DNA from: Candidatus Saccharimonadota bacterium
GTDB lineage: Bacteria > Patescibacteriota > Saccharimonadia > Saccharimonadales > UBA4665
Assembly: GCA_027371825.1 (NCBI GenBank)
Contig: DAHXLE010000025.1
Span: forward strand, 1 to 64,000
Length of the DNA stretch: 64,000 bases
Direction: 5' to 3'
Positions 4,452-11,036 of this stretch are shown here, piece by piece; the stretch's first letter is position 1, and each line of letters starts with the position of its first letter. Position numbers and translations under genes: made by a program. The notes under the pieces were generated by a model. That model saw only the letters and a program-made list of their open reading frames with translations, did not search any database and was not told the origin of the DNA.

Positions 4452-7070
4452 TTAGCGGAAGAATTTTAAAATAGCATCAAGATCTCGCTTTTTCCAGGCC
4501 GATTGATACTCTATTATTTCGCAGCCTTGCTTAAATGCTCTCTCGATTCCGGGTTCCATTCTAGGTTCAAAGAAATTTTTGTATTCCGACAATAAGTGTT
4601 CATCACCATACGACTTGGCGCAGTAAATCGGAAAGCGAGAAAAACTTAAATCTGTACCGAGCGTGCTCTTGAGCCACGTCCAGTGGTCTTTAAACCATTC
4701 CCAGGTTGCATCACGCGCAAAACGATTGGCAAAGCTGTATGCCACCCAATATGATACATCCTGCGGTCTTACGTTCGGGCCATCAATTTGTTCCAGTGCT
4801 TTCTTGATAATGTCAGGTGTACAAAAAGCTGTCAGAGCTGCTGATAAAATTACTTTTTCTTCACTGTTGTTGGTCGTATTGTGGAGGTTTAAAAGTTTAT
4901 TGTATTCCTTAATTCCGCCCTCTCTCGCTACCGTAACGTATACAACGCCGCGTATATTCGGGTCGATAAACGAATCTTTGTTTATTTTAGCAAACCTCTT
5001 GAAGGCTTCGGATATGACGGGCTTATCTTTAGATATCGAAGCTAAAGATAGAATAGTGGGCCGTAGTAATGTATCAAAATGAGACTCATTTTTCCCGGCC
5101 TCCCAACCTAGGCGATCAAGTTGCTCCTTGGCAATTTTAATTACAAAAGGTTGCATAGAACTTCGTAAGCTTTCATCGGCCATTACCGACCTTATGCTCC
5201 CGAGGCCTGATGCTATGATGTCCCAAACAAAAGGGCTGTCTTCGCCTTTGTCGGAGTCGATTAAGCTCAAAAAATTTGTCGTAGGGGACGAGCCGTTAAC
5301 GGCGTTTTCGAGAGAATCATTGAATATTCTAATTCGATCTTCTGTGCCTATGCGATGATTCAAAAGAGACTTACGCAGAATCTCCTGATATTTGTCGTTA
5401 CTGTAACTCGTCCTAAAGAAACCGTTGCTACCAGAGTTTAGAAGTAACAGGGTTTCATCCGACTTACTACTATCAAAAGTAAAATTACCTGAGGATTTAT
5501 TGAGTGTATCTTCGCTTAAAGCGATACTCGATCCAAGCGGGATGGGCCATAATTGATCGTCAAGTTTACTTACTGGTTTATCTTGATCGGATATTTGATG
5601 TTGGTGAGGCGTTAGAGTAAAACGTTTTTGAGACAGTGCAATATTACCTGCTTGCAAGTCAATATCAGCTGTAACAACAGGAAAACCAGACTGTGTTGTC
5701 CAGGAGTTCATGAAATCTTTGACCGGCCTATTGGAAACTTGACTCAAAGATTCCCATAAATCAACGGTATCGGTATTGCTATAGGAGTGGGATTTAAGAT
5801 AATGTCTCAGTCCGTCTCGAAAAAATTCTTCACCAAGATAGTGATAAAGCATATTGATGACGCTTGAGCCTTTGCAGTAACTGATATTATCGAAAATAGT
5901 CCGTATTTCGTCAGGATGGTTAATTGTTACCTCGACCGGATGCGTGTTTATGAGAGCATCTTGCTTAAGGGCGGATTCTTGTTCGTTAACTATAAACTCG
6001 CTCCACATCTGCCACTCGGGATACAAATGATCTATGGCAAAATATTCCATCCAACTGGCAAAACCTTCATTTAGCCAGAGATCAGTCCACCATCTCATTG
6101 TCACCAGGTTGCCGAACCATTGATGGGCAAGCTCATGCGCAACCACTAATGCTACGTACTGTAGACTGCTAAGGCTGGTTTTCTTAGAATCCACAAGAAG
6201 AGCTTGTTCTCGGAAAGTTATACATCCCCAATTTTCCATAGCACCAGACGAAAAGTCGGGTAATGCAATGAGGTCGCATTTTTTTAAGGGGTACGGAATA
6301 TCGAAATAGTCACTGTAGAACTCGATTACTTTTACGGCCGTATCCAGCGCGAATTTCACATAAGAAACGTTATTCGGAGTCGCATATGCCCTGATAGTTA
6401 TGCCGTCCTTTGTATGACTTTCCAAATAGTCCATGTCACCGTATACAAAAGCCAGCAAGTAGGTACTCATCACGGGTGTTTTTAAGAACTTAGTAATCCT
6501 TAACTTGTCTTCATTGTCTTTAGATTTGAATAACTTCCGGCTTTCAACCGGTGTGTTGGATAAGACGACTGCGTCGGAGGGAGTAACCAGAGATAACTCA
6601 AATGTTGCCTTAGCCTCAGGCTCGTCAATGCAAGGGAAGGCCTGACGGGCGTAATGACTTTCAAATTGGGTAGCTATCAGCATCTTATCTTTCCCTTTAT
6701 CCGAAAAATAACAAGGGTATATGCCATCCATGGGCTGTGTTATTTGACCATCAAAATCAATCTCAATTCTATATTTGCCGGGGTATAATAGTTTATCGAA
6801 GTGTAATCTTAGTTCTTCGTAGCTTTTATGCGAGTTAATTCGGGAGGGGATTAGTTTTTCCTGACCGTTTTTTGTAGATAAATATACCGTAGCGTTTAAT
6901 ATCTTTAGATTTTTCTGATGCAAGGTAAGCCTTTTACTGGGACGACCACGTTTATGCCCGTCAATGACAACACTGCCGTGGAATATCATCGCTCTTGTGT
7001 CGGGGTAAAGAAATATCTTGTAATTATCGGGCTGAAACCCGATAAATAGTCTCCGTACTTTTTTGCTCAT
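4452..7070 (-). CDS. M1-family zinc aminopeptidase
   Basis: GAMENWG and HELAHQWFGNLVTMRWWTDLWLNEGFASW. Confidence 0.95.
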   Translation of the reverse strand: MSKKVRRLFIGFQPDNYKIFLYPDTRAMIFHGSVVIDGHKRGRPSKRLTLHQKNLKILNATVYLSTKNGQEKLIPSRINSHKSYEELRLHFDKLLYPGKYRIEIDFDGQITQPMDGIYPCYFSDKGKDKMLIATQFESHYARQAFPCIDEPEAKATFELSLVTPSDAVVLSNTPVESRKLFKSKDNEDKLRITKFLKTPVMSTYLLAFVYGDMDYLESHTKDGITIRAYATPNNVSYVKFALDTAVKVIEFYSDYFDIPYPLKKCDLIALPDFSSGAMENWGCITFREQALLVDSKKTSLSSLQYVALVVAHELAHQWFGNLVTMRWWTDLWLNEGFASWMEYFAIDHLYPEWQMWSEFIVNEQESALKQDALINTHPVEVTINHPDEIRTIFDNISYCKGSSVINMLYHYLGEEFFRDGLRHYLKSHSYSNTDTVDLWESLSQVSNRPVKDFMNSWTTQSGFPVVTADIDLQAGNIALSQKRFTLTPHQHQISDQDKPVSKLDDQLWPIPLGSSIALSEDTLNKSSGNFTFDSSKSDETLLLLNSGSNGFFRTSYSNDKYQEILRKSLLNHRIGTEDRIRIFNDSLENAVNGSSPTTNFLSLIDSDKGEDSPFVWDIIASGLGSIRSVMADESLRSSMQPFVIKIAKEQLDRLGWEAGKNESHFDTLLRPTILSLASISKDKPVISEAFKRFAKINKDSFIDPNIRGVVYVTVAREGGIKEYNKLLNLHNTTNNSEEKVILSAALTAFCTPDIIKKALEQIDGPNVRPQDVSYWVAYSFANRFARDATWEWFKDHWTWLKSTLGTDLSFSRFPIYCAKSYGDEHLLSEYKNFFEPRMEPGIERAFKQGCEIIEYQSAWKKRDLDAILKFFR

Positions 7071-7077
7071 TCATGCT

Positions 7078-7107
7078 ATTTTACCAGTCCTTGCATAAGT
7101 GTTTCAA
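7078..7107 (-). promoter_or_regulatory. Predicted promoter of the M1 aminopeptidase gene
   Basis: Minus strand TTGAAA (7107-7102), 18 nt, TAAAAT (7083-7078), 7 nt before the ATG at 7070. Confidence 0.65.
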
Positions 7108-7119
7108 CTGATATATACT
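7091..7119 (+). promoter_or_regulatory. Predicted sigma-A-type promoter of nusA
   Basis: TTGCAT (7091-7096), 17 nt spacer, TATACT (7114-7119). Confidence 0.75.
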
Positions 7120-7140
7120 AACAATGTTGAAATGTAAATC

Positions 7141-7165
7141 TCCGGCCAGATTGGTCGGATTTTTT
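7141..7165 (+). terminator. Intrinsic terminator inside the nusA 5' leader (candidate attenuator)
   Basis: TCCGGCCA-GAT-TGGTCGGA (8 bp stem with one G-T) followed by TTTTTT. Confidence 0.75.
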
Positions 7166-7188
7166 AATGAAAGGATCAAGGCAAACAC

Positions 7189-8358
7189 ATGGATTTAGAT
7201 TTAAAACAATTGGTTATGGCCATAAAGACTATTGCCGAAGAGAAGAATCTGCCCGAAGAAGTCGTCAAAGAAGCGGTTGAGCAAGCGCTTGCGGCAGCAT
7301 ATCGCAGAGACTATGGGGATCGCGATCAAGATGTGCGGGTTAGTCTCAATGTTAACACCGGAGAGATTGACGCGTTCGTCACCAAAGAAGTAGTCGATAC
7401 TCCAGGCAGTGATGCCTATGAGATATCCCTAAAGGATGCCCTAAAGCTTAAGAAAACTGCCGTTGTCGGTGATAAGATTGAAGTCCATCAAAAAATTGAT
7501 GACTTCGGTCGAGTAGCTGCTCAAACTGCAAAACAAGTTATTCTTCAGCGACTCAGAGAAGCCGAGCGAGAGATTATCATGGAAGAATATGAAGATAAAA
7601 TCGGCACTATCATTAACGGTATGGTAGTCAGACAGGAGCCGAGTATCGTTCGAGTGGATCTTGGCCGTGCTCAAGCTATTATGCCCAGGAGCGAGCAGAT
7701 ACAAGGGGAGAGATATTATCCCGGTCAGCGAATAAAAGTGTATCTTAAAGACGTAGAGCGTGGGCTGCGAGGTCCGCAGCTTATAGTAAGTCGCGGCTGT
7801 AATGAGTTTATCGAGTGGCTGTTCAGGGCGGAGGTTCCAGAAATGGAAAATAACGCCGTCGAGATAAAAGGAATGGCTAGAGAAGCCGGAGTGAGAACAA
7901 AAATTGCCGTTAGCTCCAGCCTACCGGGTGTTGATCCTGTCGGTACTTTTGTTGGCGGACACGGCACGAGAGTTAACGCTGTGATGGGCGAAATAGGCGA
8001 GCAGGAAAAAATTGACATCATAGTATTTAGCGACGACACCCGTTCCTATATTACGAACGCTCTAAGTCCGACTAAAGTCACTAAAGTGATTATTGACGAT
8101 AAATCTAAGAGAGCACAGGTTTTGGTTCCCGAAGACCAGCTAAGTATTGCTATCGGTAAATCCGGGCAGAACGTCAGATTGGCCAGTAAGTTAACCGGTT
8201 ACGAGCTTGACGTTGAAGCTGACCGACAAGATGTACCCAAAGAAACCGTGAAGCCGGATGAACCTCATCATGTTCCAAAACTAAAAAAGAAGGAACAGCT
8301 CGAGAGCTCGTTACTTGAGGCAATCGAAGAGCACGGCGTCGACCAGCTTGATCAATAA
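7189..8358 (+). CDS. nusA: Transcription termination/antitermination factor NusA
   Basis: S1 region, KH region VDPVGTFVGGHGTRVNAVMGEIGEQEKIDII, SIAIGKSGQNVRLASKLTGYELDV. Confidence 0.95.
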   Translation: MDLDLKQLVMAIKTIAEEKNLPEEVVKEAVEQALAAAYRRDYGDRDQDVRVSLNVNTGEIDAFVTKEVVDTPGSDAYEISLKDALKLKKTAVVGDKIEVHQKIDDFGRVAAQTAKQVILQRLREAEREIIMEEYEDKIGTIINGMVVRQEPSIVRVDLGRAQAIMPRSEQIQGERYYPGQRIKVYLKDVERGLRGPQLIVSRGCNEFIEWLFRAEVPEMENNAVEIKGMAREAGVRTKIAVSSSLPGVDPVGTFVGGHGTRVNAVMGEIGEQEKIDIIVFSDDTRSYITNALSPTKVTKVIIDDKSKRAQVLVPEDQLSIAIGKSGQNVRLASKLTGYELDVEADRQDVPKETVKPDEPHHVPKLKKKEQLESSLLEAIEEHGVDQLDQ

Positions 8359-8552: not shown

Positions 8553-11036
8553 ATGTTGCCACCATCACCAGATTTTCAAGAATTTTTAAATCATCTTACT
8601 AACAACGCGTTAAGTAGTTTAAAACATGCCGATTTGATAGCGCGCGGTACGGGAAGCGCATATATCGGTACAGAGCACTTACTGCTTGGTGTTTTAGCTC
8701 AGAGCTCCAGTATGGCTGCTAAGATACTTGAAGATGCCGGTGTTGATTTAGAAAGAGCTCGGAATGCATTAAACCTAGCCCCTAAGACGCTAGTTATTGA
8801 CATGGGCGCTAAAGGCTTGAGTGAAGCTGCCAAGTTTACTTTACGAACAGCTTATGATGTTGCGCAGGACTATAATCAGGATGTTTGTGGAACAGAACAT
8901 ATTCTCTACAGCATTCTAACTCAAAAAAACGCTCGTGCCACGTCTTTACTTAGGGATATGAGCGTTAATATAGATGCTTTAATTAAGCAACTAGAGGAAT
9001 TCTTGAACAGGCAACAATTTGAAGAAAGCGGTGTAGGTTCGAAGCAGAGGCGACGAACCGGCGAAGGAGGAGGCCATAAAACAGCTCTGGACTTTTTTGG
9101 TAGTGACTTGACCGCTCAAGCTCGCGCCGGAAAACTTGACCCGGTCGTTGCTCGAGACGAACAGACAAAGCGACTAATCACCATACTCAACAGGCGAACA
9201 AAGAATAATCCCGTATTGATCGGAGAACCCGGAGTCGGCAAGACTGCAATAGTCGAAGGGCTAGCGCAGCGTATTATTAACGAAGATGTCCCGGACAATC
9301 TTTTAGACAAACGGATTGTGATGATAGACTTAGCTGCCATGATAGCGGGCACCAAGTATCGTGGTGAATTCGAAGAAAGGCTGAAAAAAGTCATAACCGA
9401 ACTTGAGGGCAACGACCGAGTGATAGCTTTTATAGATGAATTACACCTTATAGTTGGAGCAGGTGCCGCAGAGGGTGCGATGGATGCCGGGAACATTTTA
9501 AAGCCGGCCTTAGCTCGCGGTAAAATGCGAGTTATAGGGGCTACGACAACTACCGAATATACCAAGCATATCGAGAAAGATGCCGCCTTGGAGCGAAGAT
9601 TTCAGCCGATTCAAGTGCCGGAAGCGACGGTCCCAGAAACCGTTGCAATATTAAAAGGTCTGAAGAGGCATTACGAAGAATTTCACAGAGTCAAAATACC
9701 CGATGACGTCGTAGAGGATATCGTGAATCTATCGAAAAGATATATAACGGATAGATTTATGCCCGACAAAGCCATAGATCTATTGGACGAGACCGCCGCA
9801 CATCTTAGAGTAGAGAAAGGCAAGACTTCTCCGGAAGTTAGGAGACTTCAAAAGGAACTCAAATTACTCAATATACAGATCGATGAAGCAGTAGACTCGG
9901 AAGATTACGAGAAAGCAGCAAAATATAAGACTGTCGCCAGCCAGGTCAGTGAAAATCTAAATAAGCTCAAGCAAAGTTTTAAAAACTCCAAACAATTAGC
10001 AATGACCGCAGGCGATGTTGCGTTGGTTGTGTCCAGAATAAGCGGAGTGCCGGCAACGAAAGTTATCCGTAGCGAGGCTAAGTATTTAATTAACCTAGAG
10101 AAACGGCTTAGTCGGTTTGTTATAGGCCAAGATGAGGCAGTCGAAGCAGTTTCGAGAGCAGTTAGACGAAATCGATCCGGTGTAAGTAACGAAAATCGTC
10201 CGATCGGTTCATTCATATTCTTAGGACCTACCGGAGTTGGGAAAACCGAATTAGCACGGGTTTTGGCGCGCGAATTCTTTGGAAGTGACGAAGCGCTGAT
10301 CAAAATAGACATGAGTGAATTTGGTGAGCATCATAACGTCTCCAGGCTCGTAGGAGCTCCTGCCGGTTACGTAGGATATGATGATGGCGGTCAGCTCACC
10401 GATAAAATACGTCGTCAGCCATATAGTCTGGTGTTGTTCGATGAGATCGAAAAAGCGCACCCCGACGTTTTCAATATGCTCCTACAAATACTTGAGGATG
10501 GATATATCACAGACGCCAAAGGCAGAAGAATAGACTTTACAAACACTATAGTGATCATGACAAGTAATATCGGAGCGGATAAGCTACAGAAAGAAGCTAG
10601 TCTTGGGTTTCAGGCAGTTAATACTAATGACTTAAAAGACCTAGACAAGTTACATGAAGACAATAAGGGCAAAGTATTGGACGAGCTTAAGAAACAAATG
10701 AGACCCGAATTGTTAAACAGAATCGATAAAATTGTCGTCTTCCGGGCTCTTACTAAGCAAGACATTTTTCATATTATCGACCTGCAAGCAGATGAACTTA
10801 GGAATAGATTACGAAAACAGGGCATAGGGCTCAAGATTTCACTAAGTGCTAAAGATTATCTTCTAGAGCACGGCTATGATGCTCATAATGGCGTGAGACC
10901 GCTTAGAAGACTAATCCAGGATACAATCGAAGATTACGTTGCTATGGAACTGTTAAAAGAGAAATTCACTAAGGGAAATATATTACAAATAAGCACTAAA
11001 AACAAAGAGTTAGAATACCAAACGGTAGACGAATAG
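8553..11036 (+). CDS. clpC: ATP-dependent Clp protease ATP-binding subunit ClpC
   Basis: Clp N repeats, two AAA+ modules GEPGVGKTAIVEGLA and GPTGVGKTELARVLA, UVR-like linker. Confidence 0.95.
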   Translation: MLPPSPDFQEFLNHLTNNALSSLKHADLIARGTGSAYIGTEHLLLGVLAQSSSMAAKILEDAGVDLERARNALNLAPKTLVIDMGAKGLSEAAKFTLRTAYDVAQDYNQDVCGTEHILYSILTQKNARATSLLRDMSVNIDALIKQLEEFLNRQQFEESGVGSKQRRRTGEGGGHKTALDFFGSDLTAQARAGKLDPVVARDEQTKRLITILNRRTKNNPVLIGEPGVGKTAIVEGLAQRIINEDVPDNLLDKRIVMIDLAAMIAGTKYRGEFEERLKKVITELEGNDRVIAFIDELHLIVGAGAAEGAMDAGNILKPALARGKMRVIGATTTTEYTKHIEKDAALERRFQPIQVPEATVPETVAILKGLKRHYEEFHRVKIPDDVVEDIVNLSKRYITDRFMPDKAIDLLDETAAHLRVEKGKTSPEVRRLQKELKLLNIQIDEAVDSEDYEKAAKYKTVASQVSENLNKLKQSFKNSKQLAMTAGDVALVVSRISGVPATKVIRSEAKYLINLEKRLSRFVIGQDEAVEAVSRAVRRNRSGVSNENRPIGSFIFLGPTGVGKTELARVLAREFFGSDEALIKIDMSEFGEHHNVSRLVGAPAGYVGYDDGGQLTDKIRRQPYSLVLFDEIEKAHPDVFNMLLQILEDGYITDAKGRRIDFTNTIVIMTSNIGADKLQKEASLGFQAVNTNDLKDLDKLHEDNKGKVLDELKKQMRPELLNRIDKIVVFRALTKQDIFHIIDLQADELRNRLRKQGIGLKISLSAKDYLLEHGYDAHNGVRPLRRLIQDTIEDYVAMELLKEKFTKGNILQISTKNKELEYQTVDE

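Follow-up and report, generated by a model that had tools for sequence, protein, structure and literature searches.

The sequence examined here (the window) is a 64-kb stretch of DNA taken from a 614-kb assembly of a genome that is 71% complete. It carries a nusA gene whose product scores 371.6 bits against TIGR01953 (cut-off of 253.4) and displays the Pfam domains NusA_N, S1, and KH_5. Upstream of this gene are found a promoter, from which transcription would start near position 7126, a short hairpin, and a run of six T residues (Table 1). The stem is composed of eight pairs, including one G·U, for an energy of −11.1 kcal/mol. Its conserved core reads CCGGCC/GGTCGG in the window, and the G·U is the third pair counted from the conserved CC-GG end. 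A first-pass annotation of this DNA had described the promoter, the hairpin, the T6 run, and the nusA start codon, and each of them was found exactly where it had been placed. It had also argued that the hairpin does not close an upstream gene of the plus strand, which is correct since the neighboring aminopeptidase gene lies on the minus strand.

Table 1. Features of the nusA locus in the window.
Feature	Position	Strand	Basis and remarks
M1 family aminopeptidase, divergent neighbor upstream of nusA	4452..7070	-	ORF list and protein identification
nusA promoter of the sigma-70 type, TTGCAT-N17-TATACT	7091..7119	+	Sequence; −35 at 7091-7096, −10 at 7114-7119
Putative terminator hairpin, TCCGGCCA-GAT-TGGTCGGA	7141..7159	+	Arms 7141-7148 and 7152-7159; loop 7149-7151
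U tract, T6 (7160-7165) then AAT (distal interruption); predicted release region	7160..7168	+	Sequence
Purine-rich ribosome-binding region, AAAGGATCAAGG	7170..7181	+	Sequence inspection; before the nusA start
nusA, 389 aa, ATG at 7189	7189..8358	+	NusA N-terminal, S1, and KH domains
CIRCE-like element, TTAGCACTC-N9-GAGTGCCAA	8377..8403	+	Before clpB (8553-11036); overlaps a promoter-like site

Three other arrangements are visible around these features. The aminopeptidase promoter overlaps that of nusA (7070-7107), and the aminopeptidase mRNA may be leaderless because the −10 box of its promoter (7083-7078) is located only ∼7 nt ahead of the start codon. An inverted repeat (TTTCAAC...GTTGAAA) encompasses the nusA −10 box, with one arm on either side (7103-7133). 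Finally, base pairing is possible in the read-through RNA between the U tract and the AAAGGAUC ribosome-binding region (7158-7177), a pairing that cannot be general since both elements are far apart in many relatives.

Short hairpins followed by T residues are easily found by chance. A loose scan returned 8 such sites in 7 kb versus 6.2 in shuffled sequences, which is barely over chance. With a strict terminator rule (a stem of 8 bp or more, five or more G-C pairs, and at least six T in eight positions), the nusA hairpin was the sole site of the 64-kb window, while eight shuffles gave one site in total. One sequence alone would not settle the question, and it is the conservation of the hairpin at the same place in relatives that, on comparative grounds, puts it beyond chance. 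No Rfam covariance model gave a match for positions 7080-7300 up to E = 1.

The hairpin is conserved and its pairs covary. A scan of genome contigs yielded 43 related nusA loci that are 54-82% identical, those with a name being Saccharibacteria, and in all 43 a hairpin with the core YCGGCC-N(4-9)-GGTCGR precedes nusA, together with a T tract. Conservation of hairpin and U tract in related leaders despite drift, which the first-pass annotation had named as supporting evidence, is very strongly borne out by the relatives compared. A covariance model of eight pairs was then built from 28 members, all with 4-nt loops because MAFFT misplaced the arms when loop lengths differed. Five core pairs are invariant in the 28 members, the three outer pairs change on both sides, and 99.1% of the cells are able to pair. 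The covariation score reached 0.300 versus 0.152 after shuffling, a value attained by none of 500 shuffles. In terms of information content, the core is at or near the maximum and the T tract is high, with background levels on either side.

Across the order, the model found one match apiece in 124 of 198 genomes, and most of the inspected genomes that it missed still carry a variant hairpin. When the place of nusA was listed (118 matches), the match was located on the same strand and 6-222 nt upstream of nusA (median of 30) in 116 cases, the two others not being nusA leaders. The core CCGRCC/GGYCGG, or a form with one mismatch, is kept in 108 of 118 distinct leaders. Among the nusA leaders examined, a recognizable hairpin is absent from families f145 and f159 and from a few other genomes, and its distribution on the NusA tree involves at least four changes; several of the genomes compared are incomplete. 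Outside the order but in the same class, the hairpin is present in two lineages (G094 and G049) and absent from a third (G228). In other classes of Patescibacteria, a terminator-like hairpin was seen within 260 nt in 13 of 40 nusA leaders; the stems differ in sequence, and the count was made without background control. One of them (L193), AGTGGGT-GCA-GCCCACT-TTTTT, is similar to the rimP-leader motif. Two trivial origins of the hairpin were also considered. A generic terminator sequence common to many genes is ruled out by the single model match per genome, and the matches inspected outside nusA mostly follow tRNA genes or other ORFs. The end of an upstream gene is ruled out in most species, the upstream neighbor being divergent from nusA in 35 of 41 relatives. 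The nusA leader element is short and essentially unique in each genome.

The hairpin also occupies a fixed place after the promoter. Its core lies at a median of 14 nt past the best promoter-like −10, and the best promoter-like site of the 300 nt searched is found 8-28 nt before the core in 88 of 104 leaders, compared with 10.5% of shuffled controls. The distance between hairpin and start codon varies far more than that between promoter and hairpin, which ties the element to the promoter rather than to the ribosome-binding site. If transcription begins, as is usual, some 7 nt past the −10 box, the RNA made ahead of the hairpin is only about 7-15 nt long, and neither an antiterminator nor an aptamer would fit into it. 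Downstream of the stem, runs of five to seven T are present in 92 of 104 leaders, and in 73 of 100 the bases next to the T run are [CA][AG]T.

These features help to weigh two explanations that do not involve termination. The palindromic and near-invariant half sites CCGRCC, positioned at about +7 to +30, are reminiscent of a DNA operator, where an inverted repeat just past the transcription start would bind a repressor dimer. However, the conserved arms are separated by 4 to 11 nt depending on the leader, which is a poor fit to a dimeric DNA-binding protein, nearly all leaders have the T tract immediately next to the stem, and the outer stem pairs change together, which makes an operator very unlikely. 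Alternatively, the hairpin could serve at the 5′ end to shield the nusA mRNA or to maintain an open ribosome standby site. Its proximity to the inferred RNA 5′ end would be in line with such a role, but protection has no need for the conserved T run directly after the stem, and we regard this role as still more improbable. The reading of the element as a terminator is, from its sequence features, well supported, and the hairpin would be expected to cause termination inside the cell.

Which gene the terminator serves can be deduced from its surroundings, as the element is linked to nusA alone. Besides the divergent gene upstream, 32 of 41 relatives have a CIRCE element in the 600 nt that follow nusA; in the window, it lies just before clpB. 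This suggests that clpB has its own promoter, probably under HrcA control as judged from the CIRCE-like element, and that nusA is transcribed alone. The element, enclosed by a divergent neighbor and a CIRCE element, most likely serves only nusA. Moreover, rimP was detected in none of 21 genomes (that of the window and 20 relatives), while the same search was positive in 10 of 14 control genomes. The infB gene is located elsewhere, away from nusA, and none of 17 infB leaders contains a terminator-like hairpin. With rimP not found and infB elsewhere without leader terminators, the attenuator appears to belong to nusA alone, and attenuation of this gene is well supported at the sequence level.

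The explanation that we favor, and consider probable, is a promoter-proximal attenuator whose read-through into nusA falls as NusA rises. Shortly after leaving the promoter, RNA polymerase would produce the hairpin and the U tract within about 40 nt and, at the U tract, would either release a tiny leader RNA or read through into nusA. Since no alternative upstream RNA fold is possible, what decides on read-through must be a factor that acts on either the polymerase or the hairpin, and NusA would be the likeliest one. When plentiful, NusA would promote hairpin formation and pausing, leading to early termination and a decrease in nusA expression; when NusA is scarce, the polymerase would read through into the gene. 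Of the first-pass proposal that NusA could limit its own expression by termination in its leader, the attenuation of nusA is thus the well-supported part. NusA as the sensed factor is what we infer from the identity of the gene, the precedent of B. subtilis, the loss of rimP, the separation of infB, and features that resemble those of NusA-dependent terminators.

In B. subtilis, NusA-dependent terminators are marked by suboptimal hairpins and distal interruptions of the U tract (PMC8060035). Among the 108 leaders that bear the core, the third pair is G·U in 89, A-U in 8, A·C in 5, G·G in 2, G·A in 2, and G-C in 2, and is thus non-Watson-Crick in 98. On the NusA tree, most of the order holds the G·U, while the remaining mismatches arise within clade f2 and in f7. 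A G-C pair is rare although it is one change away and more stable, which suggests the maintenance of an imperfect stem, with the reservation that kinship between sequences lowers the number of independent events. The resemblance of the imperfect third pair and of the interrupted T run to NusA-dependent terminators is no more than suggestive, as the stem energy is not clearly lower than that of other terminators. The median of the nusA hairpins was −12.0 kcal/mol versus −12.7 for other terminators of a small control set that includes CIRCE and leader hairpins (p = 0.14), and this comparison does not support a weaker stem as a proof of NusA dependence.

A stable stem followed by T6 might even terminate without NusA. 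As such a structure can act factor-free, the terminator could be a constitutive one that cuts nusA output by a fixed fraction, with no sensing. However, a weaker promoter could give the same fixed loss, the near-invariant stem and promoter spacing across an order point to recognition, and the controlled gene itself encodes a termination factor; a purely constitutive device is therefore quite unlikely. Alternatively, the attenuator may be real and its read-through set by NusG, another RNA-binding protein, or sigma factor retained near the promoter. The stem sequence is kept beyond the needs of pairing and the site is within ∼40 nt of the transcription start. In addition, NusG acts together with NusA on weak terminators whose terminal pairs are A-U and G-U (PMC8060035), and the outer pairs of the nusA hairpin are mostly A-U or G-U. 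Control by such a factor nevertheless seems unlikely, because the element is found on nusA only among all genes and feedback by the gene's own product is the simplest account.

Further points weigh against NusA-responsive attenuation: the conservation of the stem sequence exceeds what would be expected from NusA dependence alone, no separate NusA-binding sequence was recognized upstream of the stem, and some lineages, as noted above, have no recognizable hairpin. As for termination in the lineage at large, Rho (PF07497) was detected in none of 21 genomes, and none of 100 exceeded the TIGR00767 cut-off, the weaker matches being of a length that would fit F1-type ATPase subunits. In the genome of the window, a hairpin with a T tract was found at a single gene 3′ end out of 260; the corresponding counts were 9 of 48 for a stretch of E. 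coli, and 10 of 188 and 15 of 176 for two relatives. As the lineage appears to be without Rho, the level of NusA may count for more than it usually does. A tentative extension, which we hold as possible and no further, is that in an order without recognizable Rho and rimP, NusA (or NusA with NusG) recognizes this stem, in which a non-Watson-Crick third pair is maintained (G·U, or A·C, G·G, and G·A in derived lineages), and that the nusA leader would serve as the cell's gauge of termination capacity. Another leader of the same genome is of a different kind: a SAM riboswitch (RF00162, 52.9 bits; L222:4588-4733, on contig C1 of G000) precedes an ORF that reads as an S-adenosylmethionine synthetase, and the hairpin that follows it sequesters the ribosome-binding site by pairing instead of forming a strong terminator, which suggests a control of translation.

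To conclude, nusA follows this hairpin in nearly all of the Saccharibacteria sampled, and the most likely role of the hairpin is to adjust the output of NusA to how well transcription terminates. This arrangement can be placed among known systems. The closest one is the rimP-leader, which terminates transcription prematurely upstream of rimP-nusA-infB (Naville and Gautheret 2010, PMC2965389). Both elements share an unusually conserved stem sequence with a U stretch in a leader terminator, the lack of an antiterminator, a short distance to the gene start (4-130 nt in the rimP-leader), and a position on a transcript encoding NusA, which has been proposed as the regulator of the rimP-leader (PMC2965389). 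They differ by the stem, GGGc(...)gCCC in the rimP-leader versus CCGGCC(...)GGTCGG in Saccharibacteria, and by the genes, rimP coming first in the former whereas a lone nusA, with rimP not found, follows in the latter. Since both the stem motif and the position ahead of rimP-nusA-infB define the rimP-leader, we did not file the nusA element under this name, although it would work like one. Auto-attenuation of nusA has also been demonstrated by experiment in B. subtilis (Mondal et al. 2016, according to PMC12288461), whereas in Saccharibacteria it is inferred, and the two leaders are likened on the basis of that description. E. coli NusA represses its own rimP-nusA-infB operon (Plumbridge 1985; Nakamura 1985, both as cited in PMC2965389), but this operon includes rimP and infB and lies behind the metY tRNA gene, unlike the lone nusA of Saccharibacteria. 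Auto-attenuation of nusA and a leader terminator ahead of rimP were therefore already known, and what differs here is the stem and an attenuator on nusA alone. In well-studied bacteria, where one leader terminator heads rimP, nusA, and infB, the product that it serves had to be argued; in Saccharibacteria, these genes are separated and the terminator is kept on nusA only, which points to NusA by comparison alone.
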